From Akkermansia muciniphila (GTDB taxonomy: Bacteria; Verrucomicrobiota; Verrucomicrobiia; Verrucomicrobiales; DEV007): 64,000 nt of DNA. The stretch is from positions 1 to 64,000 of the forward strand of contig CAMCXS010000003.1 of the NCBI GenBank assembly GCA_945883495.1, written 5' to 3'. Of this stretch, positions 2,530 to 46,032 are shown piece by piece. Every line of letters begins with the position of its first letter. The first letter of the stretch is position 1. The notes under the pieces are model-generated. The model saw only the letters and a list, made by a program, of their open reading frames with translations, did not search any database and was not told where the DNA came from. The position numbers and the translations under genes are program-made.

Positions 2530-5004
<2,475 letters not shown>

Positions 5005-28409: not shown

Positions 28410-29291
28410 ATGAGCCAACGGCATACCGTCACGGAGCCCTGCGGGTTGTTGCCGTTTCTGTTCGAGCATTGGCCCGATCAGAAGCGGACCCGAATCAAGC
28501 AATGCCTCAAGTACGGGAGCGTGCGGGTCAACGGGCTCCCGGTGACCCGGCATGATCACCCGTTGCGGCCGGGCGATACCGTCGCGATCCAGGTGGAAGG
28601 GGACTCACGCAAGGTGGCTCCGCCGCTGCCGGCCGGGATCCGCATCGTTCACGAGGACGCTGACGTGATCGTGATCGACAAAGGAGCGGGCTGGCTCAGC
28701 GTGGCCCGGGATTCGGGCAAAGGGAAGACGGTTTACGAGGAGCTGACCAAGCACGTTCGCTTCGCGGATGGCCGGAACCGGATTTGGATCGTGCATCGCT
28801 TGGACCGGGAGACGTCTGGGCTCATGGTGTTCGCCAAGACCGAGGATGCGAAGCGTGAGCTGCAAGAGAGCTGGGCGGATTTCGAAAAGACGTATCAATC
28901 GATCGTCGAAGGCGTCATGAAGCGGGATGCCGGGACGCTGCGCAGCTATTTGGACGAGTCCAATCCGATGCGGGTGCGCACCGTCCCGAAGGGAGTCGAG
29001 GGGCGGGAAGCGATCACGCACTTTCGGGTGGTGCGCCGTGGAGCGAGCCGGACCTGGGTCGAGCTGCAGTTGGAAACGGGGCGCCGCCACCAGATCCGGG
29101 TGCAACTGGCGGATCTCGGTTATCCGTTGGTGGGGGATGAGCGCTACGGAGCCAAGACGGACCCGGCCCGGCGTCTCGGGTTGCATGCGAGCGGATTGTC
29201 GTTCGTGCATCCCACGACGGGAGAGGAACTCGTGTTCACGCTGCCGATGCCGGCGGAGTTGGCGAAGCTGGCGTCCAGTCCTGACAAGTGA
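28410..29291 (+). CDS. RluA-family pseudouridine synthase
   Basis: A 293-aa enzyme that isomerises uridine to pseudouridine in rRNA or tRNA. An N-terminal S4 RNA-binding domain (RIKQCLKYGSVRVNG) precedes the catalytic domain with IVHRLDRETSGLMVFAK, where the Asp of HRLDRETSG is catalytic. The GRRHQIRVQLADLGYPLVGDERYG block is also conserved. Which of RluA, RluC or RluD it replaces cannot be decided. The stop overlaps a GTG (GTGA) that begins the decayed frame downstream. Confidence 0.94.
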   Translation: MSQRHTVTEPCGLLPFLFEHWPDQKRTRIKQCLKYGSVRVNGLPVTRHDHPLRPGDTVAIQVEGDSRKVAPPLPAGIRIVHEDADVIVIDKGAGWLSVARDSGKGKTVYEELTKHVRFADGRNRIWIVHRLDRETSGLMVFAKTEDAKRELQESWADFEKTYQSIVEGVMKRDAGTLRSYLDESNPMRVRTVPKGVEGREAITHFRVVRRGASRTWVELQLETGRRHQIRVQLADLGYPLVGDERYGAKTDPARRLGLHASGLSFVHPTTGEELVFTLPMPAELAKLASSPDK

Positions 29292-29836
29292 GCCAAGCGA
29301 AGAAGAACCAACGAGATTGCCCCGTCGCCGGAAAGGTCATGTCATCGGCCGAATGGCGAGTGCCGAGGAGCGTGCGCGGATGGCGAAGGAGCTTCGAGAA
29401 GCCGAGGGCTCGCGAGATGAGCATATGATCAATCACGCGCGATTCGTTTGGCGGCATCACATCCGGCGAGACGACGATGGCCGGAGGACCGGCTTGGCGG
29501 GCTGAGCAATGACGAAAAGGTGCTGCTCCGCGGGGTCAACCGGACGCGGCCGGTGCTTTTGGAGATCTAGCGGATCATCGACCGCGCCAGTGTCTCGCAG
29601 GTGCCGCGCTACTCCGTCATCGTGAGCTGGTGTTACCCGATGCCTCATTACGAGTGATCCAGTGGAAGAGCTGTTTTCCGCCCGGAGCTCAACTTTATGG
29701 AGGCGGTAGCTGCGCTCCGTGAGATCATCCGGCACCTGGTCGGGCCTCAGGAGTCGGAGCAGGAGCGTCTGAGGCTGGCGGAGCACTGCGTGGACGTTGC
29801 CGAGTCGATCTTTGCGGTGGAGGCGGGTGCTTGATC
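29288..29836 (+). pseudogene. Decayed coding region downstream of rluA
   Basis: Fragments of coding-like sequence in different frames follow the RluA stop. A GTG overlapping that stop opens a 47-residue frame with the Cys-containing CPVAGKVMSSAE. A second frame reads ASAEERARMAKELREAEGSR. A third reads LSNDEKVLLRGVNRTRPVLL, is cut by one in-frame TAG at about 29568, and continues to PRYSVIVSWCYPMPHYE. A fourth, from the ATG at 29698, gives a 45-aa helical C-terminus (MEAVAALREIIRHLV). Codon usage looks coding in each piece, but no single frame spans them, so I read this as a gene or genes broken by frameshifts and a nonsense mutation. The original family is not recognised. Confidence 0.5.
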
Positions 29837-30282
29837 GGGAGAGCGACGGCCGGTATGCAAAGAGGAGGAGGCGGTTTGTCAAGTTGAAGAGGCGGTTTGC
29901 CAAGTTGGAGAGGCGGTTTGCCAAGTTGAAGGGGCGGTTTGCCAAGTTGAGGAGGCGGATTGCCAAGTTGAGGAGGCGGATTGCCAAGTTGAGGAGGCGG
30001 TTTGCCAAGTTGAGGAGGCGGTTTGCCAAGTTGAGGAGGCGGTTTGCCAAGTTGAGGAGGCGGTTTGCCAAGTTGGAGAGGCAGTTTGCCAAGTTGGAGA
30101 GGCAGTTTGCCAAGTCGGAGGGGCAGTTTGCCAAGTTGGAGGGGCAGTTTGCCAAGTTGGAGGGGCAGTTTGCCAAGCTGGAGGGGCGACTTGCCAAGTT
30201 GGAGAGGCGATTTGCCGAGTTGGAGGGGCGATTTGGCAAGTTGGAGGGGCGATTTGGCAAGTTGGAGGGGCGATTTGGCAAG
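29829..30282. repeat. 46-bp leader plus 21-bp tandem repeat, about 19.4 units (left copy)
   Basis: The leader at 29829-29874 is followed by 21-bp units starting at 29875 (pattern TTTGCCAAGTTGGAGAGGCGG with variants) up to a partial unit ending at 30282. The plus-strand frame reads heptads such as RRFAKLE, which would form a charged coiled coil. The frame is also open on the minus strand, so this alone does not prove translation. The same leader and 2.5 units recur at 45552-45650 in the same orientation. Confidence 0.92.
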
Positions 30283-30290
30283 CCCACCCC

Positions 30291-30797
30291 TCACTCCACG
30301 GGACGAGCCGGCCTCGGCACGGTGAGTCGTTTTCGGGTGGATGCGGCGGCATCATTGGACGGTGGGGCTTCCCTGGATGGGGGAGCTGATGCCGGGACCG
30401 GCAGCGGTTGCGCCCGGAATTGTGGTGCGGGCAAGCCAGTGAGCGCCGCCGAGTTTGTGGCGCCGCCAGCGAGCGTCGAGACGCAGAGGAGCGGGCCGAA
30501 GGGACGGACTTCTTTGCCGTTGAGCAACACCAACGGGGCGCCTTGGAGGTGGTGGGCTTGGGCGGAGGCGATATCGCTTTCCAGCTTCTCCTGGGTCCGG
30601 GGATCGGAAAGACCGGCGGCCAGGCTTTCCCGGCTGGCGATCGGTGAGAGGAGTTCCCAAAGCTTGTCCGTGGTCAGGCCCCGGGCGTTTTCGTAGATGA
30701 GCTTTTGAGCCAGGTGAAACTTGCGCGGATCCGGTTCCAGGCAGAGCAACGCTTTGGTGGCCGCGCACCGGACGTCGTCCCCCGGGTCACAGAGAGG
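30291..30797 (-). pseudogene. 5'-truncated DsbA/thioredoxin-like gene fragment
   Basis: An open frame of 168 codons without a credible start: a TAG lies immediately upstream at 30798-30800, only 7 bp past the stop of the RHS gene. The sequence resembles the C-terminal part of DsbA-like thioredoxin-fold proteins, often fused to VKOR: CAATKALLCLE, KLIYENARGLTTDKLWELL, and a cis-Pro-like QGAPLVLLNGKEV. The N-terminal half with the CxxC active site is absent. The C-terminus is Pro/Ala-rich. I infer that the gene lost its 5' part when the RHS locus was inserted or rearranged. A short translated product from the TTG at 30749 cannot be excluded. Confidence 0.65.
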
Positions 30798-30806
30798 CTA
30801 TGAACT

Positions 30807-33800
30807 TCAATCTTCGAAGACAGCCTCGAGCGTGATGCCCTCCTCCATCAAAAATGAAATGGTTCGCGCGGGGGATTCGATACTTCCTTTCCAACCGGAA
30901 AAGCGTTTTCCTCTGGCAGGTGTCGATGTGATCGTGACGAGTTGACCGATCTGGCGATCTGTGCTTCCCAAGAATCCATGAGACACCACTCCTGGACCGG
31001 TTGTCGTAACGTGCAGTGGCTTCTTGCTTGAGACCAGAAAGCTGCGAGTCGTGAGAACTGACTCATTACCGGCTCCATCGATCGCCTTCGCGATCACTGA
31101 GTAGCGTCCGCCTCCGTCCTCGGGAATGGTGACTGGAAACTTCCAAAGGGTAGTCCCCTCGGCGAGAGCCGGAGCCTCCATCACGCCATCGTGGAGCACC
31201 TGATACCACACTGAAGCAATTCCTTGGGCGTCTTTGGCGGAGCCCGAGATTTCGAGCACGCCATTCACTGGAGTTACGATTGATTCAGCCCTCGGGGAGG
31301 AAATGCGGAGGACGGGAAGCGGCGTCAGGCCAATGGGCAGTTGATCATTTCCGTCTGGCATCCTATCGGGGTGAGGCTCAATCATGATGCGCCCCCCTGC
31401 GGGTCCCGCCAAGTATCTGCCCAACGCGAAATTCTGCTTTTGGAAGACGACGCCGTTTGCCCGTGTGCGACCGCCAGTTCGTGGATGGACAAAAGACCCG
31501 CTGAACGAGCCGGTTCTGGGGCTGAAGCTGAGTACAAGGCGCTCTCCGCCTTGAGGAGGAAAGACCGTTGATCCGCCAGCATTCATTGTCCCAATGCGCT
31601 CCATTGCGGATGGCAGGCTGAAATCATTCAGAGCGGCCAGCACGTTCCCTCCCAGATTCGAAAGTACCAGCGGTCTGGTGTTTGCCTGCGGTATCTGGTA
31701 TTTCGCCAGCAGGATCCGTGTTTCGGTCTTGATCTCACCCGGATAGGCCAGCGAAGTCGGGTTCGCCCGCTTCCACCAGTGGAGGGTGCCATCGCCATCG
31801 CTGACATTCACGACGTTTCTCAAAGCGGGCTTGCCGATGACAAAGCCGTTGTTTCTGTAGAGCGGCAGATAGAGCGGCCACTCGGCATCTTTGGACAGAT
31901 AGGTCGCGGCGGATACCCTTGCGCCCTCTGCCAATTGGCCAGTGAATTTCACGCCGCCACCGGTGGTGATGGAGATCGCACCGTGACCTGGTCCGTAGGG
32001 AAGGTCCGCCGTTGGAGGGCCATCAGGTCCATGAAGCAAGATGGCGGTGTAGGCCCCGGCATGGGCGGTGGCGGGGTTGCGCTTCGCGTGCCACACCTGC
32101 CGATCGACTACGAAATCCGTCGCGAAGGTCTGTCCAGAGATGGCAGGACCGTTGTAACTACCATCTGTCAGGCGGCCGACAATTCGGTCCACATCAGGCA
32201 CGGAGGAATGCACCAGCTGAAGCCGGAGTGGGGTGTTGCCTCTACGGGGGATCGAGACCTCCGCGATCCCTTGCGGATTGAAGCCGCCTCTGCCGGACAA
32301 CGTTCTGCCTCCCATCAGAATCTTGAACGTAAAGGCCCCGGTGGCGGTGCTGGTCATTGACATGGAGCCGGAGGTCAGCCAATCCGGCGCCGCTTCCCGG
32401 ATCAGGCCGAGATAACTTCCCTTCAGTGCCCCAGCGTAAGTTCCGACATGAGAAACATCGACTTCCACCTCACCGGCGGCGGACTCCTTATCATCTGGAC
32501 CGTAGGCGACCGCCCGTAACCGGTGGTGTCCGGAAGATGCTGGAAACCAGCGCAGATTAAAGTTGGTTCCCACGCCTTCACCCAGCAGGACGCCGTTGCC
32601 AAAGTAGGCGACACGAGCGATGTCCACTCCGGTTGGTAACGATGCCAGCGCCAAATCGACACCCAGCCGACCGTTTACGTCCGCGCCGTCCGAGAGATTG
32701 GCTAGAGACAGACCGGGGACAACATTGGTGCTCGCTTGAGCGAAGGGGGCCTCCGAAGACGTTTGGCCGACGAAATCCCTGGCTCGGACGTAGAATGCGT
32801 GGAGCCCAGCCGTGGTGGCCGTGTAGGTCCCATGCGTTTCCGGCGTTCCTTCAAGCCAAGGGACGAAGGCCCCGCCGGCGACCGAGACAAACACATCGTA
32901 GCTCTCCACGCCGGAACCGCCCTGATCGTCACCAGTCCAGGAAACCTGGATCTCACCCAAGCCGCTCACGGATGGCAGTGCCGTGATTCCCCCTAGCGGT
33001 GCTGTGCTGTCCAAGGTGACCAGAGCCTCCTTGGCTGGATTCGTGCCCTTGGAGGCGTCCTGCGGATCGACTTGGTTGGTGGCGATGACCTCGTTGGTGT
33101 CAAAGCGGATCTCCGCGACGTTGCGGAAAGGCGTGCCATTCGCCAGGCCAGCCTTCGGACGGATGAGGAAGGAAACGTGACCCATTCCGCGGCCGCTCTC
33201 GTCTTCAGGAGGCAGGAAGCCGATCCCCGCACCGGGTGGCAGCCCGGTCTCCCGGTCAATCGATTGGAACACGACGGTGACCAGACCCGTGTTGAAGTCG
33301 ATCCCGGCCTCCATTTCGACATCGAAGGAATGGCCATCGATCGTGACAAACACGGAGCCCGAATAGTGGGTCGAATCTCCGGGGACCTGAACGACCGTGT
33401 CACCAAAGCCGAGTTCGGTGATGCGGAAGGTGCTCCAGTCGAAATTCGCCGGCAGTGCATCCGTGACCGTCACCCGCTGTGCTGGGGCCGTGGCGAACGT
33501 CGGATACGGATTGCCATTCTCGTCCTTTGAGCCGGGTCCGAGGTTTTCGAAATTGATGCGATACGGGAAAAGGTCTCCGGAGCGCACCCAATTCGCCGGA
33601 CCATATCCGCCAGGCCCGAGCTTCTCATTCGGGTCGCGGGCCACGATGATCGGTGTGGGGGGCGGAGGCGTGGGTTGGGGTTGTGGCGGTGGAGGCGGGG
33701 TGGGCGGCTTAGGGGGCGGTGGAGGCGGAGTACAAGCAGTCGCACCCGTGGTGATTGAACCACCCCACTTCCCTGCATCTCCATTTCCGACACCTCCCGA

Positions 33801-36800
33801 AACGGAAAAGCCGTCATCTGGGTGCCAGGTAATGGATGCTTCGCCAACACCATAGCCAATTGAAGCGGTAATGCCATCCCATCCAGTCGACGGCATTCCT
33901 CCGATAGATTTAGACACCGCTAGGCCAGGAGCCCCAAAGCTTATTCCACCGAAGCCGCTTGCACACGCTCCACCGGTGCCCGCAGACCATCCACCACCAC
34001 CACCGACATTCACGAATGGAATGCTAGTGGGAAAAAAATAGCCTACGCTGGTCGAGGCTGCAATGCCCTGTAGGCCTCTTGGGTCAATCAGATCTGTTGG
34101 GCGATTATAAACGTAACGATAAAAATTAGGGTCACCGCCAGTTAGGCCCAGTGGATCAGCCTGAATGAAAGTGCCTAAGGTGCTAGAATAGAATCTTGCC
34201 CGCATAAAATGCACGCCATTCTGCTCGGACGTCACGCCCAGCTGGCCAACATAATGCGCACGGCCTGGTGGGAGCGTCCCGGAAATCAATTCTTCTCCAA
34301 ATGGGCCGTAAGATGCAACGTGCTGGCCAACGCCTTGGGTATTGCTAATCGCGATGGTCGAGCCAATCGAGTCGAAGTCGAACCAGTTGACTTCGTTTCC
34401 GAGCTTGCTTGAAACAAGTCCATGGCCGTAAGTGAATTGAAGTGTTTGCTGCGAGGGTGTAATTTCTTCACTCAGAACACTGATTATTCCGGTCGGATCC
34501 AATAAGAAATTTTTCCGCTCTCCGTTAATTATGCTGGCAATACGGTTCCCTTGAGGGTCGTACTCGTATTCTGTCACTCCTGCGGGTCCGCTTACTTGGG
34601 TTAGTCGGTTTAGGGAGTCGTAGGCATAGAATTGGTGGTCTAGAGTCTTGATGTTTCCGTCCGTATCGTGTTGGATCTCCTCACTGCCGACGTTTATATA
34701 TTGGTTCAAGTTGTTTGTGGTGAATGGCGTTGCTTTGCCGTTTACTACGCTTTGAGTGCGACATCCAAGAGAGTCGTAATAGTATTGGTGGTGCTGGTTC
34801 GGCAGCTCGGTCGACTGTGACGCGAAAATCGCTTGCACCAGTTGATTTGTGGCATCGTATGTGTAGCTCCACACTCCAATTTGAGTTTCCATCCGCGTGC
34901 GTCGTCCGCGGACATCGTAAGTATAGGCGAAACTGGAGGTTGGAGTGCCGTCTGGTGCGTGGTTGACGAGCATGAGAATCTGACCCGCCGTGTCGTATTG
35001 GTAGGTTGTGTAAGTTCCGTTGCCTTTGTTGATCCTCGACAGGCGACCGGCTTCATCATAGAGGTATTCGACGATTGCCACCTCGGTCGAATCGCGCAGT
35101 TTCCACAGTTGTCCTGTGGGATTGTATTCGTAGCGGGTATCGCCTCCGGCACTGTCCACCATGCGGCTACGGCGGCCGTGGGTGTCGTAGAAGTATTCGA
35201 CCCACCCACCATTGGGGTAGCTGACCTTGCGGAGACGGTCTCCGTCGGTGGGTGTCGTGTAATCGTAGGTGGTGATCTTTTGTGGTCCGGACGCCGGTTG
35301 TTCTGTCACGCGGATCAGGTTGCCACGGGCGTCGTAATCGAAGTCCGCGATGTCGCCTTCGTAGAGTGTGCGGCGGGCGATTTGCCCTTGAGGTGTGTAG
35401 GTGAAGGTCGAGGTTTGGCCTCGGCGGTTCGTCCGTGATGCGGGCAGACCGGCGGCGTCGTATCCGGCTAGCGATTCGACAGATTGATCGGCGTAGGTGG
35501 TGGCGAGCAGATTGCCCTTGGTGTCGTAAGAATATTCGGTGCGGTTCCCCTTGGCGTCGATGAAGGCGGTCATCTTCTTCAGCGGGTGCTCGTAGCTGAA
35601 ACGCGTGGTGTGGCCGAGTTCATCGGTGATCGTTGCCGGGCTGCCGCAACTGCACCAGGTGAAGCTGCGGCTGTCGCCGGATGGCAGCAGCAGGCGTTTG
35701 AGCCGCAGATCCTTGTCATACTCGGAGGTGGTGATGTTTCCGAGCGGATCGACCATCTTGGCCAACAGCCCGCGGTGATCGAAGGAGAACGCGGTAGCTC
35801 CAAAGGCATCGGCGATCGACACGCCGCCGGCGCTGTCGTAACCGAAGGTGATGACCTGTTGATCTCCGGCCACGGCCGAGGAAGCGAGGCGGCCTCGCTC
35901 ATCCCAGGAGAAGCTGCGGGTGACTCCAGCCCGGGTGATGGAGCTCAAGGCGTGGAGCCGTGCCGGAATTCCTTGTGTCAGATACGTATAGCTGGTGACT
36001 TTGCCGTCTCCTGTCGTGGCGGAAACGAGGTAGTCGCCTTGATAGCCATAGGTCACGCTGCGGCCGGTGGATTCCGTCGCCTGGGTGATTCTCCCGGAGC
36101 CGTCATAATCTAGGGTGATGGTCGCTCCGGAGCTGTGAGTCAGGGTCGCGAGCCGGTTGGAGCTGTAAGTGGCGCTGACGCGGTTTCCATTGGCGTCATC
36201 GACCACGCCAATGCGGCCTTGGGAATTGAAGCGGGTAACGCTGCCGTCGGGAGAGCGGAGTTCGAAGGCGTTCCCGCTGATCGCGGTGAGCTTGGCGCTG
36301 TCCCCCGCGCCTGAGAAGTAGCGGCCATTGCGGGTATCCCGGACAAAGACGCGGGCGGACCCTCCCTCACCGATGATGCGCACAACCGCGTCACCGTTTT
36401 CGCTCACAAGGTGGGTTTGCCAGCTCGTGAACCAGCCGCGACCAAACGGGCCGCTCTCCCAGCGGGAGCGTAGGTTTGAGGAAAAGCGCCGGTCGATTGA
36501 CAGGGAGACCCCGGGGCTAGCGACGGCGGCGTCGGTCACTGAGTCGAGGACGGGCAGTGGGGAATAACCGTAGGCTTGCTGAAGTTCGAAGTTCCAGAGC
36601 TCAGCCACGTCGATGACCCTCTGACCGAGACGTCCAAGGAACGCGGCATTGTCATTGAGCATGGCCACGTAATCGGCAGTGGTCTTGAGTTCGCCTGTGA
36701 GATTGTTGAAGATGACATCCCAGACAGCTGCATTCAGAGTCGGCGGGCGGAGCTGAGACTTTAGAGGCGCCCAATCGATTGAGTCTGGATTGTCGGAGGT

Positions 36801-39800
36801 CCAGTAGCGGATTTCCAGGGCGAGGGATGTGGCGCTCCAAGGCTGAAGCAGACCGGTGAAATAGACTGGGACTTGAAAGCTCTCGCCGGGTTGAAGCAAG
36901 CCGGGCTGGTTGCCGCTGGCGAGAATAAAGATTTCCGTGGAGCCACCTGGTGGCAGGGACTCGGTTCCCGCCCAGAAGTTCTGGACGGTGAGATTGGGAT
37001 CCAATGTAAGGATTGGGCGGTTGGGGGAACCCTCAGGTGCCCGGACCTGGAGCAACGGCGCGGGCATCGACGCGTTGCCCGTATTGGAATACTCGACGTA
37101 AATCGTTGCGGGGGCTCCGGGCTGAATCGCGCCGGGCATGACCAGTTTGGTTTCCAGTTTCGGCTCCCCTGCGTCCAGCGACTCAAAGGCGGCGGGCAGG
37201 GTGGCGGAGAAACCTCCGGGGCGGCTGACCCTCACGGCGTAGCTGCCCGGTGGGACAGCGTTGGCCGAAAAGGTTGCGGTGAGGCGGGTGATTGAATCCA
37301 CCGAAAGGCTGGAGGCGCCAATGGTCCGGCCATCGCCCACGAGTTGGACCGTGGTGCCGGGCTGGAAGCCCGCACCGCTGAGGGCCAGGGTGATCGGAGC
37401 GTTCGATGCATGGCTCCCTGGCGACACGCTGGTGAGGGCGACGCCCTGGGGAGCGGCTTCCAAGGTGAAGGTGCCTGGCACAAGAACCGCATCGGCGTAA
37501 ACGAGAACGTACCACGTGCCGGCCGAGGCCCAGGGGATCAGAATACTGCGATCCGATCCCGGACCGGAGGAATCTCCGTGCTCGTGCGAGCCACGCGACG
37601 GCAGAGTGCCGCGAGAGGCGAAAAGTTCGATGCGGTTGCCCGCAACTCCGTTTGCCAACGAGAGCAGGAGCGGGCCGGCGGAGTCCAGATTCAGGACATA
37701 ATACTGCGGCTCGCCAGGGCTGGAGATGTCGTTGCGGACGGGAACACCAGCGGAAAGCTCGCCGCGAACTATGGAAGTGATCTCGATGTCATCCACGTAC
37801 CACCCAGGCCCAGTGGAGCCATCGCCATCGGCGGTGTGGAGGAAACCGAGGCGCACGGTTTTGCCTCGATAGGCTCCGAGATCGAGAATGGCCTGCTTCC
37901 AGCCGCCGCTTGAGGCGGTGACGCTCAGCAAAGGCACCCAGTCCGACCAGATCTCGCGGTCTTGGACGGAGATCTCCAGCGATCCTCCGTCGCCCGCACC
38001 GTACTGGTGCCAGTGCCAGAAGCGCAGAGTGACCAGCCGGTTCGGGCCGGGATCTCCGACGACAAAGGCTGGGCTTTCGAGGCGAGCGACGGAGTTTGCG
38101 GGATAGTTGCCGGACAGGTTGGTGGCGGCCAGATTGTTCCCACTGCGGGCGCCTCCGGGGCCGGAGAAAGGCCGGCCGATCTGCCAGATGCCACCGGCGT
38201 CCGCCCTCCAATCTCCCGTGTCCGCTTCGAACGTTTCCGGGTTGTTCAGGACATCCGCTCCGGTGACAATTTCCGCCAAGTCGATGTACCAACCGGACCG
38301 CTGATCGAAGGCGTCAGTGACTTGGCGGAAGGCCACTTGGACCCATTCGCCAGCGAAGGCGGAAAGATTCACGGAGGGTTTGCCCCACGAGTTGCCCCCG
38401 GCACCGGTCCAGGTGGCGAGTGGTAGCCACGGTCCGCCAATGCGTCGGACTTCCACCGTCCCTCGATCGCCGGAGCCGAAGTCATACCACTGCCAGAAAC
38501 GGAGCCGCGGAGTCAGATGCGAGCTGGGGACCTGGAACAGTGGACTGACGAGACGTCCATCAAAGTTGGCAGGATAATTCCCGGCGAGCACGGTTGCGGC
38601 GCAGGTGTCCCCTTCGAAGGCGGCGCCAGGGCCCGATGCAGGTGTGCCGCAGTCCCATGCCGTGCCGACGGCGGTCCAATCGCGCCAGAACGCTTCCGGC
38701 TGAAACGTTTGGGAGGTGTCGGCGATCCAACCCGCCGGAGCGCCTGTGACCAATCCCACATTGTCGAGATCCCAGCCAGTGCCGGCGTTTGCAGTGGCAC
38801 CGGAACGGAACCGGAACGCAACCTGGATGCGCCGCCCGGAAAAGGCGGAGAGATCAAGTTCCTTGTCGATCCACCCCGGGGATTGCCCGACGATGGTGGC
38901 GGCTATCTGCCAGACTCCTGTGGTGCCTTCCCGGATTTCGATCGTCCCGGAGTCGCCGCTGCCAAAAGCCCAGCGATGGTCAAATCCGAGCCGGGGAAAC
39001 TGCGCCAACGCGGGAACCTCGAACAGCGGACTGATGAATCGGCTCTCGGCATTCGCGGGATAATCGGCGCCCGTGCCGACGCCGGTTCCACCGGTGAATG
39101 CGGACCCAGACCTTGCCGCCCAGACGCCGCCGGTAATCTGCCAGCGGGCCAATGCGCCCGAGTCTTCAAAGCCCTCGCCTTCCGACGTATTCCACAGCGT
39201 GCTGAAGGTCACGCCGGCTGTGGTGGTCACTCCCCGCGCGTTCTCCGCGACGACGCGGAAATGATAAACGGTGGCGGGCTGGAGCCCGGTCAGCAAGGTG
39301 GAGGCAGCGACGGCGCCGCTGGTGCCAGTGAGTGTCTGGACCTGGCTGGTGAACCCGTAGGCCGGAGTGGGACCGTACTCGAAAAACACCGTGGCAGGAA
39401 GACCCGCCGGGTTGACTAGGGCATTGAGCCGGGCGCTGGTGGAGGCGACTTCTGTCGCTCCGTTGATGGTCAGGTAAGGCGGTGCGTTAAGCTGCACCGT
39501 GTTGACCCCTAGCGACTGCGATCGCCGCCGCGAGAGCCCGCCCGCTTCGATCCTGTCTCGCACCAATGGGGAATAGCCGCGGAAGATCTCACCGCTGAGC
39601 GTGAGACCATCGCGATCTCCGTCATCCGCTGCCGTGCGGTTCGTGTTGCCGAAATGTGCCAGCTCATACCCGTCGAGGATCCCGTCAAAGTCATCGTCAA
39701 GGGTGCTATCAAAATAGCGGGCGGTCGCTACCACTGGTTGGTTCACGAGAATCGACACGAGGCTGCGCGAGTAGCCTCCGGGATCCGTTTGGCGGACGCC

Positions 39801-41804
39801 ATTCACCTCCCAAAAGGTAAACTTCACATTGCCGACCGCGCTGGTGGCCAGATCAGGTGTCGTAATTGTCGATCCCGGCACGGCCAGACCTTGGTCATTC
39901 ACCATGCCAGCTGGCAGGCTGGTCATTCGCCAGGGGAGGCGCCGCGCGGAGGGATCGACCAGGACCGCGGCGGACCGGCGTCGACTCACGCCGCCGGCCT
40001 GAAGATGGTCCGCGGCTAGCGTCGAGTAGCCACGAAACTGTTCGATCTCCCACGCAAGCGAATCCCCGTCCGGGTCCGAAGTCAGGTTGTGATCCAGCGT
40101 GTCGTGGAAGAGCCACTCGATCCAATCCGCGATGCCGTCGGCGTCGGTGTCGGCCGTCTCCGCGATATAACGGGCCACGGCGTGAGTGTCCTGATGGAGG
40201 TTCAGCGTCACCGGTTGGTGAAGCGGCGGCCGATCCACCCGGACTCCGTCGATGAACCAGCCGGTGAAGCGATAGCCGTTGCTGGTGAGCGGTGCCTCCG
40301 TCAGCTCTACGGTGCTGTCTCGCGAGACGATGCGTTCATTGACCAGGACACCTTGTGGGCTGGAGGTTTCCCGGAGCCTCACGAAGTTGGCGCTAGGCAC
40401 GGCCCACAGCGGCAGGGAACGCCGCCGGCTGCTGCCGCCTGGCTCGAGCCGGTCAATGACATCGTCACGGTAGCCCCGCAGGTCTTCCACCTGCCGGATG
40501 AAGCCGTCGCGATCGTTGTCCAGCAGGGTGGGATCGGCGATCTGCAAGGAGATGGTGCCGCTGCGCCGCCGGCTCACGCCGCCTGCCGAGAGGGTATCGA
40601 AGGCCGCCAGGTCGTAGCCTCGATCCACTTCGACCCGATTGGACAAGCCGTCGCCATCTGAGTCGTCGTCAGCGGCGCTGGATACGCTTCCCAGGTAATG
40701 CACCTCCATCCAATCCAGCAGTCCGTCGCTGTCGCTGTCTTGCGTGGCGGGCAAATAGTGCGCGATGGCATGGATCGGGTCGATGACCGTGAAGCTCACC
40801 GGATTCTTCGCCCTTCCGGAGGGATGGCTGTGCCGAATGCCGTTGAGTGTCCAATGGGTGAAGCGGTAACCGGAGGGATTCTCCGGGGCCGTGACGGTGG
40901 TCGCTCGGCTGCCGAGCAACGGAAAGGAGGTCTGATTGACCACTCCAGCGGGTGAAGACGTTTCCCGGAAATCGACCCGATCGCCGCTTGCCTCGCCGCT
41001 GTTGAGGGTGCCCAAGAAATGGATTTCCATCCAATCGGCCACTCCATCGCTGTCCGAATCTTGATTCTCGGGAAGGTAGTGGGCGATCGCATTGACGGGC
41101 TCGCTGATGGTAAAGCCGACGGGGTTCTGGGCCCGGCCGGTGGAGTCGTCGAAGCGGACCCCATTGAGCGTCCAGTGGGTGAAGCGGTTCCCCGAAGGAT
41201 TCTCTGGGGCCGTGACGGTGCTAGTTTGGCTGCCAACTTGGGGAAAGTTTGTTTGATTGACAACACCGGCGGGTGAAGACGTTTCCCGGAAATCGACCCG
41301 ACCGCCACTTGCCGCGCCGCTGTTGAGGGTGCCCAAGAAGTGGATTTCCATCCAATCGGCTACTCCATCGCTGTCCGAATCTTGATTCTCAGGAAGGTAG
41401 TGGGCGATCGCATTGACGGGCTCGCTGATGGTGAAGGCAACGGGGTTCTGGGCCCGGCCGGTGGAGTCGTCGAAGCGCACCCCATTGAGCGTCCAGTGGG
41501 TGAAGCGGTTCCCCGACGGATTCTCTGGGGCTGTGAAGGTGCTGGCTTGGCTGCCAACTTGGGGAAAGGTAGTTTGATTGACGACACCGGCGGGCAGCGA
41601 GGACTGGCGGAATTCCACGTTCTGCGCCCAGGCATCGGAGCAAAGGACCAAGAGGGCAGGGATGATCTGAACCAAGGGACTGCGTAGCACTCCCAAGATC
41701 CCCTTCACTGGCTTCCTGGTTGATCTCAGCCGCAATCGCCCCTGGATCGGCGCAAGGCGCACTTCGGGATGGTGCTTCCAGGGGAATGGAGGGAGGGTGC
41801 TCAT
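30807..41804 (-). CDS. Giant secreted RHS/YD-repeat protein, 3665 aa
   Basis: Signal peptide with a long n-region, cleavage expected after DAWA at residue 60. Then: three 107-aa repeats ending in DSDSDG calcium-type loops (about 62-382); further DxDxDG modules each ending in a GGxSRRRS motif (to about 770); an Fn3-like domain; three MAM-like beta-sandwiches with YPAN repeats (about 870-1350); PPC, IPT and CARDB-like domains; and a YD/RHS barrel at about 1750-2575 ending in the core motif RARFYSSTLGTFIQADPLGL and NRPTDLIDPRG. Unlike polymorphic RHS toxins, about 1090 residues follow the core: a Gly-rich stretch, a Pro-rich linker near 2692-2718, DUF11-like, Fn3 and Ig-like domains, two beta-barrel repeats typical of Verrucomicrobiota, and a C-terminal InlB B-repeat-like domain. 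I see no toxin domain. The frame opens at 41972; the ATG at 41804 is chosen for the signal peptide. It is 26 bp downstream of the RCC1 gene. A surface adhesin or shell-forming role is inferred. Confidence 0.88.
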   Translation of the reverse strand: MSTLPPFPWKHHPEVRLAPIQGRLRLRSTRKPVKGILGVLRSPLVQIIPALLVLCSDAWAQNVEFRQSSLPAGVVNQTTFPQVGSQASTFTAPENPSGNRFTHWTLNGVRFDDSTGRAQNPVAFTISEPVNAIAHYLPENQDSDSDGVADWMEIHFLGTLNSGAASGGRVDFRETSSPAGVVNQTNFPQVGSQTSTVTAPENPSGNRFTHWTLNGVRFDDSTGRAQNPVGFTISEPVNAIAHYLPENQDSDSDGVADWMEIHFLGTLNSGEASGDRVDFRETSSPAGVVNQTSFPLLGSRATTVTAPENPSGYRFTHWTLNGIRHSHPSGRAKNPVSFTVIDPIHAIAHYLPATQDSDSDGLLDWMEVHYLGSVSSAADDDSDGDGLSNRVEVDRGYDLAAFDTLSAGGVSRRRSGTISLQIADPTLLDNDRDGFIRQVEDLRGYRDDVIDRLEPGGSSRRRSLPLWAVPSANFVRLRETSSPQGVLVNERIVSRDSTVELTEAPLTSNGYRFTGWFIDGVRVDRPPLHQPVTLNLHQDTHAVARYIAETADTDADGIADWIEWLFHDTLDHNLTSDPDGDSLAWEIEQFRGYSTLAADHLQAGGVSRRRSAAVLVDPSARRLPWRMTSLPAGMVNDQGLAVPGSTITTPDLATSAVGNVKFTFWEVNGVRQTDPGGYSRSLVSILVNQPVVATARYFDSTLDDDFDGILDGYELAHFGNTNRTAADDGDRDGLTLSGEIFRGYSPLVRDRIEAGGLSRRRSQSLGVNTVQLNAPPYLTINGATEVASTSARLNALVNPAGLPATVFFEYGPTPAYGFTSQVQTLTGTSGAVAASTLLTGLQPATVYHFRVVAENARGVTTTAGVTFSTLWNTSEGEGFEDSGALARWQITGGVWAARSGSAFTGGTGVGTGADYPANAESRFISPLFEVPALAQFPRLGFDHRWAFGSGDSGTIEIREGTTGVWQIAATIVGQSPGWIDKELDLSAFSGRRIQVAFRFRSGATANAGTGWDLDNVGLVTGAPAGWIADTSQTFQPEAFWRDWTAVGTAWDCGTPASGPGAAFEGDTCAATVLAGNYPANFDGRLVSPLFQVPSSHLTPRLRFWQWYDFGSGDRGTVEVRRIGGPWLPLATWTGAGGNSWGKPSVNLSAFAGEWVQVAFRQVTDAFDQRSGWYIDLAEIVTGADVLNNPETFEADTGDWRADAGGIWQIGRPFSGPGGARSGNNLAATNLSGNYPANSVARLESPAFVVGDPGPNRLVTLRFWHWHQYGAGDGGSLEISVQDREIWSDWVPLLSVTASSGGWKQAILDLGAYRGKTVRLGFLHTADGDGSTGPGWYVDDIEITSIVRGELSAGVPVRNDISSPGEPQYYVLNLDSAGPLLLSLANGVAGNRIELFASRGTLPSRGSHEHGDSSGPGSDRSILIPWASAGTWYVLVYADAVLVPGTFTLEAAPQGVALTSVSPGSHASNAPITLALSGAGFQPGTTVQLVGDGRTIGASSLSVDSITRLTATFSANAVPPGSYAVRVSRPGGFSATLPAAFESLDAGEPKLETKLVMPGAIQPGAPATIYVEYSNTGNASMPAPLLQVRAPEGSPNRPILTLDPNLTVQNFWAGTESLPPGGSTEIFILASGNQPGLLQPGESFQVPVYFTGLLQPWSATSLALEIRYWTSDNPDSIDWAPLKSQLRPPTLNAAVWDVIFNNLTGELKTTADYVAMLNDNAAFLGRLGQRVIDVAELWNFELQQAYGYSPLPVLDSVTDAAVASPGVSLSIDRRFSSNLRSRWESGPFGRGWFTSWQTHLVSENGDAVVRIIGEGGSARVFVRDTRNGRYFSGAGDSAKLTAISGNAFELRSPDGSVTRFNSQGRIGVVDDANGNRVSATYSSNRLATLTHSSGATITLDYDGSGRITQATESTGRSVTYGYQGDYLVSATTGDGKVTSYTYLTQGIPARLHALSSITRAGVTRSFSWDERGRLASSAVAGDQQVITFGYDSAGGVSIADAFGATAFSFDHRGLLAKMVDPLGNITTSEYDKDLRLKRLLLPSGDSRSFTWCSCGSPATITDELGHTTRFSYEHPLKKMTAFIDAKGNRTEYSYDTKGNLLATTYADQSVESLAGYDAAGLPASRTNRRGQTSTFTYTPQGQIARRTLYEGDIADFDYDARGNLIRVTEQPASGPQKITTYDYTTPTDGDRLRKVSYPNGGWVEYFYDTHGRRSRMVDSAGGDTRYEYNPTGQLWKLRDSTEVAIVEYLYDEAGRLSRINKGNGTYTTYQYDTAGQILMLVNHAPDGTPTSSFAYTYDVRGRRTRMETQIGVWSYTYDATNQLVQAIFASQSTELPNQHHQYYYDSLGCRTQSVVNGKATPFTTNNLNQYINVGSEEIQHDTDGNIKTLDHQFYAYDSLNRLTQVSGPAGVTEYEYDPQGNRIASIINGERKNFLLDPTGIISVLSEEITPSQQTLQFTYGHGLVSSKLGNEVNWFDFDSIGSTIAISNTQGVGQHVASYGPFGEELISGTLPPGRAHYVGQLGVTSEQNGVHFMRARFYSSTLGTFIQADPLGLTGGDPNFYRYVYNRPTDLIDPRGLQGIAASTSVGYFFPTSIPFVNVGGGGGWSAGTGGACASGFGGISFGAPGLAVSKSIGGMPSTGWDGITASIGYGVGEASITWHPDDGFSVSGGVGNGDAGKWGGSITTGATACTPPPPPPKPPTPPPPPQPQPTPPPPTPIIVARDPNEKLGPGGYGPANWVRSGDLFPYRINFENLGPGSKDENGNPYPTFATAPAQRVTVTDALPANFDWSTFRITELGFGDTVVQVPGDSTHYSGSVFVTIDGHSFDVEMEAGIDFNTGLVTVVFQSIDRETGLPPGAGIGFLPPEDESGRGMGHVSFLIRPKAGLANGTPFRNVAEIRFDTNEVIATNQVDPQDASKGTNPAKEALVTLDSTAPLGGITALPSVSGLGEIQVSWTGDDQGGSGVESYDVFVSVAGGAFVPWLEGTPETHGTYTATTAGLHAFYVRARDFVGQTSSEAPFAQASTNVVPGLSLANLSDGADVNGRLGVDLALASLPTGVDIARVAYFGNGVLLGEGVGTNFNLRWFPASSGHHRLRAVAYGPDDKESAAGEVEVDVSHVGTYAGALKGSYLGLIREAAPDWLTSGSMSMTSTATGAFTFKILMGGRTLSGRGGFNPQGIAEVSIPRRGNTPLRLQLVHSSVPDVDRIVGRLTDGSYNGPAISGQTFATDFVVDRQVWHAKRNPATAHAGAYTAILLHGPDGPPTADLPYGPGHGAISITTGGGVKFTGQLAEGARVSAATYLSKDAEWPLYLPLYRNNGFVIGKPALRNVVNVSDGDGTLHWWKRANPTSLAYPGEIKTETRILLAKYQIPQANTRPLVLSNLGGNVLAALNDFSLPSAMERIGTMNAGGSTVFPPQGGERLVLSFSPRTGSFSGSFVHPRTGGRTRANGVVFQKQNFALGRYLAGPAGGRIMIEPHPDRMPDGNDQLPIGLTPLPVLRISSPRAESIVTPVNGVLEISGSAKDAQGIASVWYQVLHDGVMEAPALAEGTTLWKFPVTIPEDGGGRYSVIAKAIDGAGNESVLTTRSFLVSSKKPLHVTTTGPGVVSHGFLGSTDRQIGQLVTITSTPARGKRFSGWKGSIESPARTISFLMEEGITLEAVFED
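40658..41621. repeat. Three in-frame 321-bp repeats at the 5' end of the RHS gene
   Basis: Anchor segments (TCCATCCAATC) recur at about 40704, 41026 and 41347, a 321-bp (107-aa) period. The two upstream copies (41300-41621 and 40979-41300) are nearly identical at the DNA level, while the third is diverged. Each encodes an ETSSPAGVVNQT-type strand, FTHWTLNG and a DSDSDGVADWMEIHFLG calcium-loop segment. Confidence 0.88.
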
Positions 41805-41830
41805 AGCCACCGGGGAGAAAGGTGGTGGAT

Positions 41831-44398
41831 TCAAGGAGCACCGAAGACCGCGAGAGTGTGATTCACGCCCGCAGCTACCTTTCTCGCCCCCATACCGATC
41901 TGCACTGGGAGGTTCCGTTGGGTTGTGGTGCCGTCTCCCAATTGCCCGTTCCTGTTGGAACCCATGGCCCACAGAGTGCCGTCGGTCTTGATGAACAGGC
42001 TGTGGTCACTTCCGGCGGTCACTTCGGAAACACCCGTGGCGATTTGGAGCGGCGTGCTTCGCCGGGTGGTCGTGCCATCACCGAGTTGGCCGCTGCCGTT
42101 GTTCCCCATAGCCCACAACGTACCGTCAGTCTTCACAAAGAAAGTGTGATAGCTGCCGGCGGTAACCTTAGAGACCCCTGTGGCGATTTGGACCGGCGTG
42201 CTTCGCCGAGTAGTCGTGCCATCGCCGAGTTGACCGTAATCGTTGTAGCCCATCGCCCACAAGGTTCCGTCGGTCTTGAGAAAAAGGGTGTGAAGATCAC
42301 CCGCAGCAACCCTGGAGACGCCTGAGGTTACCTGCACCGGCGTGCCTCGGTTCGTGGTCGTGCCATCGCCGAGTTGGCCGTATCCGTTGGAGCCCATCGC
42401 CCACAGGGTGCCGTCGGTCTTAACGAACAGACTGTAGGTGTCTCCCGCCGTCACTTCGGAAACACCGGTGACGATCTGGGCTGGCGTGCTTCGCCGAGTG
42501 GTGGTGCCATCACCAAGCTGGCCGTAATCGTTATTCCCCATCGCCCACAGGCTGCCGTCGGTTTTTAGAAACAAACTATGGTAAGATCTGGCAGAGATCT
42601 GTGTAACCCCCGTGGCCACCTGTACTGGCACGTTGCGCGACGTCGTCGTCCCATCGCCAAGCTGACCGTTTCCATTGTAGCCCAAGCCTAATAGCGCTCC
42701 GTTGGATGTCACAAAGAGGCTATAAGAACTGCCCGCAGCGAGGGCAACGATCTCTGACGATGCCAGGCCGGGAGAGAGAGTAGTTTCACCCCATCCGTTG
42801 CTTCCCCAAGCTGAAAGAACCGAAGAAGGAGCCAAGGCCTGGCGCACGACGGAATTCGATGTCACTGAGGAAAACCCGTAATTGCCTGCCAACGTCCGGG
42901 ATATCTCGCCTGCCGTGATCCCGCGAAAGCCGAGCTTCTGGTAGGCAAAGATCCGTCCTGTATTTGTCGTCGACGTCCCGCTGGCGAGCATGCTGTTTCC
43001 ATAAGCCCCGCCAGCTGCCCGCACCTGCCCGTTCGAAAAATTGAGACCGGACTCTCCATTGGCCACAAACCAGTACCACACCGAAAGCAATTGGGCATCG
43101 GTCAGCGGAGCGCGGCTCACTTCCAGGGCCGGCTGATCGCCTTCTGCCGGAACCGTGATCCAATGAATTCCGAGGGGATTGCGGTCATCCTTGGCCAAGA
43201 CCTCCACTTCGATCTGCGCGAAGTCGACCGACCAGTCCGCCGCCATGTCCCAGGTGATGCGCTTCTCGACTCCGGCCGTTTGATTGGCCCCGATGTTGGC
43301 CGAGGTGCCTTCCACAAACGTTTTCATCGGGATGACGTCGGAGAGGGTGTTGTTCCCGTTGAGAAAGGCTAAGGCTGCCGTGGAAACCGTAGAGCTGTCG
43401 GCATCCGTGACCTTGTAATCGATATCCAGCAGCGGCATTCCGGCACGCTGGGCCACACGCGTCACGGCGGGCTGGGGGATCGCGGATGGGAGGAGCGTGT
43501 TGTGGACGTTTGAATATTCGCGCTCCAAGACTCTTACCCTGCGCATGTCTGACCGGAGAAAGTAAATGTCGCCGCGCCGGTTGGTGGCGAGGCCGTAAAT
43601 GGTGCTCGAGCTAAATGTTCCAATCGCCGCGAACTTCGGATCGAGGACGTAAAAGGTGGAATTCCCTCCCACCAACAAACCGTCCGGAGTGATGGCGACT
43701 CGACCAAGCTTTCCGTAGTTGGGGGTGCTGCTGAGGAACTGCCCTTGAGGATCAAAAACACGGATCTGGGGACTTCCGTTGCAGCTCAGAATGACCCGGC
43801 CATCTGGCGCGATCGTCAGGCCGCTGGGGTCGTTGGCGGCAAACTGTCCGGGCAGGCTGCCGGGATCTCCCCACTTGCGCAGGAAGTTTCCACTGGTGTC
43901 AAACACTTGAACGCGCCGGTTTCCGGGATCGCAGACGTACACTTGGTCGGCCGGATCCAGCGCGATCATATTGTATTCGTCCGGCGTGCCGAAGCTGAAC
44001 TGGCCGTTGGCATTGCCGGATCCGCCCCAGTCACGCAGGAACGTGCCATCGGACGTGAATGCTTTGACCTTCGCGTCTTCACGGTCCAGGACGTACACAT
44101 TCCCTGCCGTGTCGCAGGCGATTCCAAGGATGAAGCCGAACACTGCATCGAATCGGCGGACGAAGGCCCCGCCTTCCGTGAACTGGAGAATCCGTGTCGC
44201 CGTTGTCGAAATATTCGTCCCTTCACCGGCGTAAACCCCACCGCTGCCAATCCCGATGCAGCGGAGATATTTGTCTGGCTCCGGACTGGCGAACTCGACC
44301 CCATCGTACCGCCACGAATCCTGAGGCATGACAACCTGAGCGGAAACCGTCTGAAGCAGGCCGCAGAAAACGAGTGGGAGGCAACTCCGGAGATTCAT
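41831..44398 (-). CDS. Secreted NHL plus seven-repeat RCC1 propeller protein
   Basis: An 855-aa exported protein (signal MNLRSCLPLVFCGLLQTVSA). Residues about 30-320 form an NHL-type propeller (NVYVLDREDAKVKAF, QVYVCDPGNRRVQVF). The middle has an Ig-like/cadherin-like segment (MPLLDIDYKVTDADSS, ITWDMAADW) and a formylglycine-enzyme-like segment (LEVSRAPLTDAQ..WYWFVANG, AYQKLGFRGIT). The last 330 residues carry seven RCC1 units with GxNxxGQLGDGTTT, enough for a closed seven-bladed propeller. DNA of the units repeats every 144 bp. No catalytic site is evident, so it is probably a binding protein. The ATG at 44398 gives the signal peptide. It precedes the giant RHS gene by 26 bp in the same direction, implying one operon. 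Confidence 0.9.
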   Translation of the reverse strand: MNLRSCLPLVFCGLLQTVSAQVVMPQDSWRYDGVEFASPEPDKYLRCIGIGSGGVYAGEGTNISTTATRILQFTEGGAFVRRFDAVFGFILGIACDTAGNVYVLDREDAKVKAFTSDGTFLRDWGGSGNANGQFSFGTPDEYNMIALDPADQVYVCDPGNRRVQVFDTSGNFLRKWGDPGSLPGQFAANDPSGLTIAPDGRVILSCNGSPQIRVFDPQGQFLSSTPNYGKLGRVAITPDGLLVGGNSTFYVLDPKFAAIGTFSSSTIYGLATNRRGDIYFLRSDMRRVRVLEREYSNVHNTLLPSAIPQPAVTRVAQRAGMPLLDIDYKVTDADSSTVSTAALAFLNGNNTLSDVIPMKTFVEGTSANIGANQTAGVEKRITWDMAADWSVDFAQIEVEVLAKDDRNPLGIHWITVPAEGDQPALEVSRAPLTDAQLLSVWYWFVANGESGLNFSNGQVRAAGGAYGNSMLASGTSTTNTGRIFAYQKLGFRGITAGEISRTLAGNYGFSSVTSNSVVRQALAPSSVLSAWGSNGWGETTLSPGLASSEIVALAAGSSYSLFVTSNGALLGLGYNGNGQLGDGTTTSRNVPVQVATGVTQISARSYHSLFLKTDGSLWAMGNNDYGQLGDGTTTRRSTPAQIVTGVSEVTAGDTYSLFVKTDGTLWAMGSNGYGQLGDGTTTNRGTPVQVTSGVSRVAAGDLHTLFLKTDGTLWAMGYNDYGQLGDGTTTRRSTPVQIATGVSKVTAGSYHTFFVKTDGTLWAMGNNGSGQLGDGTTTRRSTPLQIATGVSEVTAGSDHSLFIKTDGTLWAMGSNRNGQLGDGTTTQRNLPVQIGMGARKVAAGVNHTLAVFGAP
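41840..42830. repeat. 144-bp RCC1-encoding DNA repeats
   Basis: Anchors (GTCGGTCTT and variants) lie at 41981, 42125, 42269, 42413 and 42557, exactly 144 bp apart, equal to 48 aa per RCC1 blade. Neighbouring units share long identical stretches, which suggests recent duplication or gene conversion. The outermost units are more diverged. Confidence 0.9.
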
Positions 44399-44420
44399 GG
44401 GTGTTGGGCAAGTTGATGTC

Positions 44421-44449
44421 GTGCTAAGATCGGAGCGTGGCGATGTCAA
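44421..44449 (-). promoter_or_regulatory. Putative promoter of the RCC1-RHS operon
   Basis: On the minus strand TTGACA (plus 44444-44449) is followed after 17 bp by TAGCAC (plus 44421-44426), 22 bp before the ATG at 44398. The -35 is perfect, the -10 poor. Confidence 0.45.
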
Positions 44450-44460
44450 ATGGAACATTG

Positions 44461-44928
44461 TTAATTGCGGGTAACGTGAGTTTGCCAGGCGGATCTCCAT
44501 CCGAAGTCTGGTTGTGAGAAGGCTTGACGATAACGCGAATCTTCCAATGCTCGGTACATCGATACCCCGAGGACCTGGCGGATGCCGTCCATGCTGGTGG
44601 TGTATTCCTCGATGAGGCCGGGACGGAGCCAAGCTTCTGCGTTCGCTTCCTTCCCCGTTGACCGGACCCAGAGCCTCTCGGTCGTGGCCTCGCCTTCCAA
44701 GCGTTGGAAGAGGGCTTTGAGCCGGGCGCCGTTCGCCGTCGGGGTAATCCCGATGCCGTCCCCGGAATACTGCTTCTGCGCCGCGGCGCCGAGTTGGTCC
44801 ACCGGGATCGAGGCGGAGCCAGTTGGACCGGTCCCGGGAGCCGGAGCTGGGGAGTCCGCCATCGCCGGCGTGGTCAGAAATGCGGCGAGGAGGCAGAGAA
44901 TGGGGGCAAAGGCCAGCGGAGTTTTCAT
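44461..44928 (-). CDS. Small secreted protein of unknown function
   Basis: A 155-aa protein with a clear signal peptide (MKTPLAFAPILCLLAAFLTTPAMA) and a mature part of mixed helix and loop: GAAAQKQYSGDGIGI, ARLKALFQRLEGEATTERLWVR, AEAWLRPGLIEEY and a C-terminal EDSRYRQAFSQPDFGWRS. I do not recognise the family. The ATG at 44928 was chosen for the signal; the open frame continues upstream without one. It is 62 bp upstream of the RCC1 gene on the same strand, but a separate promoter lies between. The intergenic region before it contains GGAGGAGG on the plus strand only, so no Shine-Dalgarno site is evident on its own strand. Confidence 0.7.
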   Translation of the reverse strand: MKTPLAFAPILCLLAAFLTTPAMADSPAPAPGTGPTGSASIPVDQLGAAAQKQYSGDGIGITPTANGARLKALFQRLEGEATTERLWVRSTGKEANAEAWLRPGLIEEYTTSMDGIRQVLGVSMYRALEDSRYRQAFSQPDFGWRSAWQTHVTRN

Positions 44929-45373
44929 GCGCTGGATAGCCGTTAAAAGGAGGAGGCGAAGATGTCTAGGAAAATACTTACAGATTGTGCGAGTTTTCTC
45001 AAGAATGAGTCGACTGCTCGACCGTGGGTCGGGGGCAGGCGGGGCGTGATTGGGTGATTTTGACGAAATCGTCACAGAGACAGGGGCGGCGGTGCCCGGG
45101 AGCGTGACGATCCCGGGAGGGGGGATGTGCTGGAATTCGGCGAACAGGCGAGGGCTTGTCGATGCTCCTGCAATCCGAAATGGAACGCCTGGCGCACAAC
45201 GCCACAAAGCACAAAGCGAATGCGGGGGCGCCGATGTTGGAGGTAGGCCGGATGCGCCATTCAGGTGAAAGAGCGGCCATGTCCAGAACACATGTTTGGT
45301 CTGATCGTTGGAGCCTTCGCGTCTTCATGCGAGCCCATTCCATCCCTCTTTGGGATGAATGCCCGAGGCTGGC

Positions 45374-45498
45374 GACAATTGGCGGATCCCGCGATTGTCC
45401 CGCACCTTTCAGGGCGGGGCGCATTCATCGGTTCCCCAGGGCTGCGGTCGCTGCAGCTCCCTGCGCCCTGGGCTGGCCTGTCCCGGCCCGTTGGGCCT
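45374..45498. repeat. REP-like palindromic element, copy 1
   Basis: A 125-bp element with several potential hairpins: GACAAT/ATTGTC, CCGCACC-type arm with GGGCGG, CCAGGGC/GCCCTGG, and GGCCC-GTT-GGGCC. It matches the element at 45714 along its whole length (offset 340 to 344 bp). Such elements are often mobilised by REP-associated tyrosine transposases; none is in this window. Confidence 0.85.
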
Positions 45499-45551
45499 GG
45501 AGGAGTCGTGATGACCTCGGTTCACTGTGTTTCATTTGGCAGGGAAGAGTT

Positions 45552-45650
45552 GCTGGATCGGGAGAGCGACGGCCGACGTGCAAAGAGGAGGCGGCGACTT
45601 GGCAAGTTGGAGAGGCAGTTTGCCAAGTTGAAGAGGCAGTTTGCCATGTT
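45552..45650. repeat. 46-bp leader plus 21-bp repeat, 2.5 units (right copy)
   Basis: The leader at 45552-45597 matches 29829-29874 over its full 46 bp with few differences, followed by units at 45598, 45619 and a partial one at 45640. Orientation is the same as the left copy, 15723 bp away. Confidence 0.9.
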
Positions 45651-45713
45651 CTCTAGAGGATTAGGCGGGGTGGCGGGCAGCCTGTTCCTCAAATCAAAGC
45701 GCTGTAAGCGCGG

Positions 45714-45842
45714 GACAACGGGTGGAACCTCCGATTGTCCCGCACCTTTCAGGGCGGAACGCGTGTCCTTGGGGTTCCCCAGGGCTGCGGTCGCTACAAG
45801 CTCCCTACGCCCTGGGCTTTCCTTTCCCGGCCCGTTGGGCCT
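45714..45842. repeat. REP-like palindromic element, copy 2
   Basis: The second full copy of the element at 45374-45498, with the same hairpins and a 4-bp length difference in its second half. It ends about 190 bp before the PSD1 gene. Confidence 0.85.
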
Positions 45843-46032
45843 ATCGGAATCGCTTCTGACTTGTGAGTAAGAGCCAGAGGGGGGGGCTGCCTCGCCTCAG
45901 GAGAGCGGCTATGCTCGTGCGGATGTCAATTGGGGATGCGGCCTTGGTGGCGGCTCCAAAACTCGCACAGAACGCGGAGTCCTTGGTGAAAGTTGCAAGA
46001 TGCAACGGGTGTGATCTAAGTGCCCAGACGAT

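Follow-up and report, generated by a model that had tools for sequence, protein, structure and literature searches.

A dispersed leader-array repeat flanking a species-specific secreted-protein operon at a rearranged locus

STAR elements of Staphylococcus are built from a 14-bp GC-rich unit with the consensus T(G/A/T)TGTTG(G/T)GGCCC(C/A), separated by spacers of at least 40 bp (PMC3532100). REP/BIME sequences are dispersed extragenic hairpins arranged in clusters of alternating orientation, which together with a hairpin-flanked Y1/IS200-like transposase gene, TnpA_REP (RAYT), have been termed 'REPtron' (PMC2817692, PMC3733652, PMC8266576). In 2010, the Acido-Lenti-1 family (RF01687) was listed as a likely RNA found in Acidobacteria and Lentisphaerae (PMC2864571). 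The draft genome analyzed here comprises 6.46 Mb in 206 contigs. In a 64-kb window at the beginning of its contig C3, a leader followed by an array of 21-bp units is present on either side of a block of secreted-protein genes. We put a probability of roughly 0.7 on the reading that this leader-array is one part of a non-coding repeat dispersed in intergenic DNA, i.e. a VNTR mostly located beside REP-like hairpins, which flanks a species-specific operon at a rearranged locus by chance and does not represent the ends of a cassette.

The leader-array pair and the enclosed genes

Both copies are located on the plus strand and thus are in direct orientation. The leader 20-mer GATCGGGAGAGCGACGGCCG has two exact occurrences in the window, as compared to a mean of 0.03 in shuffled sequences with up to three mismatches allowed, and the 21-bp unit, TTTGCCAAGTTGGAGAGGCGG, is found 21 times versus none expected. 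The first-pass annotation had described the same 46-bp leader at both sites. The pair, its shared strand and its excess over chance are real, but the leaders are close relatives rather than identical, as they match at 40 of 46 bases. Over 100 bp the two copies share 87% identity. The first-pass estimate of about 19 versus 2.5 units was borne out by our counts. The features of the locus are as follows:

28410-29291, plus strand: rluB-type pseudouridine synthase gene, left flank; synteny with both sister species stops here
29829-29874, plus strand: leader of the left array
29875-30290, plus strand: left array, 19 units of 21 bp (29875-30273) plus a partial unit
30291-30790, minus strand: thioredoxin-like gene of which only the 3' part remains (Thioredoxin_4/DSBA, weak match, E 0.002-0.004)
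30807-41972, minus strand: gene for a giant secreted RHS-repeat protein of 3,721 aa (RHS_repeat, E 3.9e-39; Rhs_assc_core; choice-of-anchor J; InlB-type domain)
41831-44632, minus strand: gene for an RCC1/NHL beta-propeller protein (RCC1, E 6.5e-61; NHL, E 1.8e-10)
44461-44933, minus strand: gene for a small secreted protein with a signal-peptide-like start (paralogue at C180:638-916, 80% DNA identity over 280 bp)
45168-45350, no strand assigned: terminal segment of a different dispersed element, present as a diverged copy about 77% identical to the ends of six contigs
45374-45498, plus strand: REP-like hairpin, Acido-Lenti-1-like (RF01687, E 9.5e-4, under the gathering score)
45507-45551, plus strand: conserved stretch that extends the right element upstream, shared with the copy from C7:124698 onward (79% over 131 bp) and missing from the left copy
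45552-45597, plus strand: leader of the right array
45598-45650, plus strand: right array, 2 units plus a partial unit
45697-45851, plus strand: second REP-like hairpin, Acido-Lenti-1-like (RF01687, E 2.6e-5, under the gathering score; fold z-score -2.9)
46033-49206, plus strand: gene for a PSCyt1/PSCyt2/PSD1 protein, right flank; synteny with both sisters resumes here

As noted before, the genes between the copies are restricted to the truncated gene and the RHS, RCC1 and small secreted-protein genes, all of which are encoded on the minus strand. The operon runs leftward from the small secreted protein through the RCC1/NHL protein, whose true start probably lies inside the listed open reading frame, to the RHS protein. 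It is followed by the thioredoxin-like remnant, which separates the RHS gene from the left array. In-frame stop codons lie immediately upstream of this remnant, here taken as 30291-30749, and the 5' part of the gene could not be located. Tandem repeats are also present inside the genes, namely 321-bp repeats in the RHS gene (40843-41594) and 144-bp repeats in the RCC1 gene (42026-42562), the latter probably corresponding to RCC1 repeats. Elsewhere in the window, a 41-bp unit is repeated 6.6 times at positions 1-269 and a 9-bp unit 19 times within an open reading frame at 3117-3287. Contigs C17, C61, C115, C140, C163 and C175 end within near-identical copies of the sequence related to 45168-45350, with one sharp common boundary, CCATCCCTGGATTTAGG; this sequence probably is the end of an abundant and recently active mobile element that was lost from the assembly.

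The units of the left array vary stepwise, and this variation reads as non-coding as it shows no synonymous-site bias in any frame. A coding array composed of FAKLERR heptads was considered and rejected: the open frame has 69 non-synonymous versus 8 synonymous changes and another frame gains stop codons. An ATG/GTG-started open frame passes through leader and array at 45511-45870 and at C7:124701, with similar leader peptides; the substitutions in the units argue against coding. When the array-frame peptide was searched against GTDB proteins, none of the 86 pattern matches could be confirmed.

Dispersal of the array and its association with hairpins

Genome-wide, arrays are found at six sites: the two in the window, C3:166443, C7:124730, C71 and C106. 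The array at C3:166443 is a degenerate pair of units, the one on C71 comprises 12 units at the contig end, and the one on C106 is located at the contig start. The search for further leader copies proposed in the first-pass annotation yielded four additional sites, mostly beside other genes. Counted from GGAGAGCGA, the left leader agrees with the right leader in 32 of 37 positions and with the C7 leader in 33 of 37; the longest exact runs shared by the left copy measure 28 bp with the right copy, 33 bp with C7 and 28 bp with C71. Since the left leader is as near to C7 as to the right copy, the bracketing pair is not special. BLAST detected no array in 56 related genomes, sisters included, the exact two-unit DNA pattern had no match in GTDB species genomes, and a search of plasmids likewise found no match.

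Scattering of the leader without relation to accessory genes had been named as an outcome that would speak against a cassette. The element is indeed scattered, but its neighbors are mixed: the C7 array is located between gatA and a DUF1353 gene, whereas the C71 array adjoins the gene for a 3,212-aa MBG/YDG protein and the C106 array that for a 1,999-aa cadherin/PKD protein. The vicinity of these two arrays to giant secreted-protein genes counts against the reading as an ordinary dispersed repeat. The MBG/YDG protein has a relative in the sister genome G002, which lacks arrays.

A REP-like hairpin adjoins five of the six arrays (C3-right, C3:166 kb, C7, C71 and C106). Two further observations count against the same reading: the left array has no adjoining hairpin, and the one next to the C7 array matches only in part. 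The REP-like elements reported for the right border are real and belong to a dispersed family with 74 BLAST matches in the genome, about 60 of which are hairpins, and a few copies in G002. With RF01687 covariance scores of 31.6 and 25.9 bits, the hairpins in the window stay below the gathering score of 37, and no Rfam family reached its gathering score across the block; among the other genomic copies sampled, three exceeded it (38.3 to 41.2 bits).

At C7:94154, a gene encoding a 153-aa Y1/IS200-like transposase (PF01797, E 1e-22) is flanked on both sides by hairpins of the same family in both orientations. Transposase gene and Acido-Lenti-1-matching hairpins are contained in C7:92654-95995, at positions 1072-2824 of that stretch. 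Palindromes of REP/BIME systems bear a GTAG (or CGTC) tag at their foot. The GTAG/CTAC tag is absent from the transposase-side hairpins and from 45374-45500, and is present only within the loop of the copy at 45690. The arrangement suggests that Acido-Lenti-1, filed as an RNA family, may be a DNA element of the REP type; we found no paper joining Acido-Lenti-1 with Y1/IS200-like transposases. A bolder and rather doubtful extension is that a REP-like family classified as Acido-Lenti-1 RNA would be a transposase-associated DNA hairpin with a variable tandem array, and that these composites would mark or cause chromosomal breakpoints where giant secreted-protein operons are gained.

Gene order at the locus and explanations for it

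For comparison of gene order, two sister species of the genus were used, including G002; one of the sisters is covered by 1.3 Mb only. A more distant genome, G041, was also inspected. Species-specific DNA extends from about 29292 to 46032, i.e. about 540 bp beyond the left and about 380 bp beyond the right copy. Apart from the REP hairpins in G002, neither sister has a DNA match to this block, whose GC content (0.607) matches that of the flanks (0.603-0.604). Both sisters have a pyridine-nucleotide oxidoreductase gene next after rluB, and in both lysC-hisI precede the PSD1 gene. The reciprocal junction between hisI and the oxidoreductase gene is found on C7 (116918/116959) in unique sequence, in agreement with the rearranged locus postulated earlier: synteny breaks with respect to both sisters and the partners of rluB and PSD1 are adjacent on C7. 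In G041, the left-flank MTHFR gene lies about 1.2 kb from PSD1, which weakly suggests an ancient association between the left flank and PSD1, with the change having occurred in the sisters. When outgroups were searched for the lysC and oxidoreductase junctions, neither adjacency was among the matches listed. Taken together, the data support both the accessory nature of the operon block and the rearrangement of its locus between species.

According to the cassette proposal, the repeats are borders at which homologous recombination would bring in, remove or exchange the 15.7-kb surface-protein block. In its favor are the direct orientation of the copies, the exclusive set of genes between them and the absence of the block from both sisters. 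An exact match of up to 28 bp could even support low-level recombination. However, the copies are only 87% identical and not each other's closest relatives, the element is dispersed in the genome, and species-specific DNA passes both copies. An empty site with one leader copy was anticipated in relatives; the two sisters provided none, as they lack the element and have another gene order at both flanks. We therefore regard a cassette as quite improbable. Alternatively, arrays or hairpins could promote chromosomal breakage and ectopic recombination, with the block trapped between two events. Synteny of G002 halts after gatA, just ahead of the C7 array, and each of the three arrays comparable with a sister (C3-left, C3-right and C7:124730) coincides with a break in synteny, a pattern that may point to a causal role. 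In addition, the array folded as single-stranded DNA is more stable than shuffles (z -3.5). Yet the comparison covers three sites only, neither the reciprocal hisI/oxidoreductase junction on C7 nor the corresponding junctions of the sisters carry an element, and the gene order of G041 hints at a change in the sister lineage, which has no arrays. Such a hotspot thus appears unlikely.

Bracketing and breakpoint would both be false if assembly had produced a misjoin at the array or the repeated hairpins. This is a draft in which C71 and C106 terminate beside arrays and six other contigs within the repeat found at 45168-45350, but the stepwise differences between the left-array units do not fit an exact collapsed repeat, the reciprocal C7 junction lies in unique sequence, and the distant relative G041 keeps a left-flank gene near PSD1. 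We consider a misjoin very improbable.

The dispersed intergenic repeat remains our preferred explanation. A TnpA_REP-like transposase of the Y1/IS200 type would spread the hairpins, as the hairpin-flanked gene on C7 suggests, and arrays may have been copied along with them or inserted beside them. Array length, ranging from 2 to 19 units, would shift locally by slippage or unequal exchange. The secreted-protein operon may have been gained, or retained in this species alone, at a gene-order breakpoint tolerant to insertions, where the repeats would be passengers. What we observed directly is that the repeat is dispersed and mostly adjoins hairpins, that the sisters lack the block and that the reciprocal junction is present on C7. 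In a single window, a dispersed intergenic repeat can mimic cassette borders; genome-wide search and synteny with sister species correct this reading.

Comparison with described repeat systems

Like STAR elements (PMC3532100), the arrays are intergenic, species-restricted and interspersed direct repeats whose unit number varies by locus and whose flanking genes differ between species. In contrast to STAR, the 21-bp units are arranged head to tail without spacers, at six sites and usually beside REP-like hairpins, and the unit TTTGCCAAGTTGGAGAGGCGG does not conform to the 14-bp STAR consensus. The resemblance to REP/BIME and TnpA_REP systems lies in the many-copy dispersed extragenic palindromes, their clusters of alternating orientation and the Y1 transposase gene between inverted palindromes. 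The hairpins described here differ in that they lack the GTAG tag at the foot, are longer (two-stem, Acido-Lenti-1 type) and at some sites are accompanied by a 21-bp tandem array. As for the Acido-Lenti-1 RNA (PMC2864571), the hairpins match its covariance model, with both window copies under the gathering score, but in this genome they are dispersed as a repeat and also occur on both sides of a transposase gene. Through this link to a TnpA_REP-like gene, an orphan RNA family may turn out to be a mobile DNA repeat.
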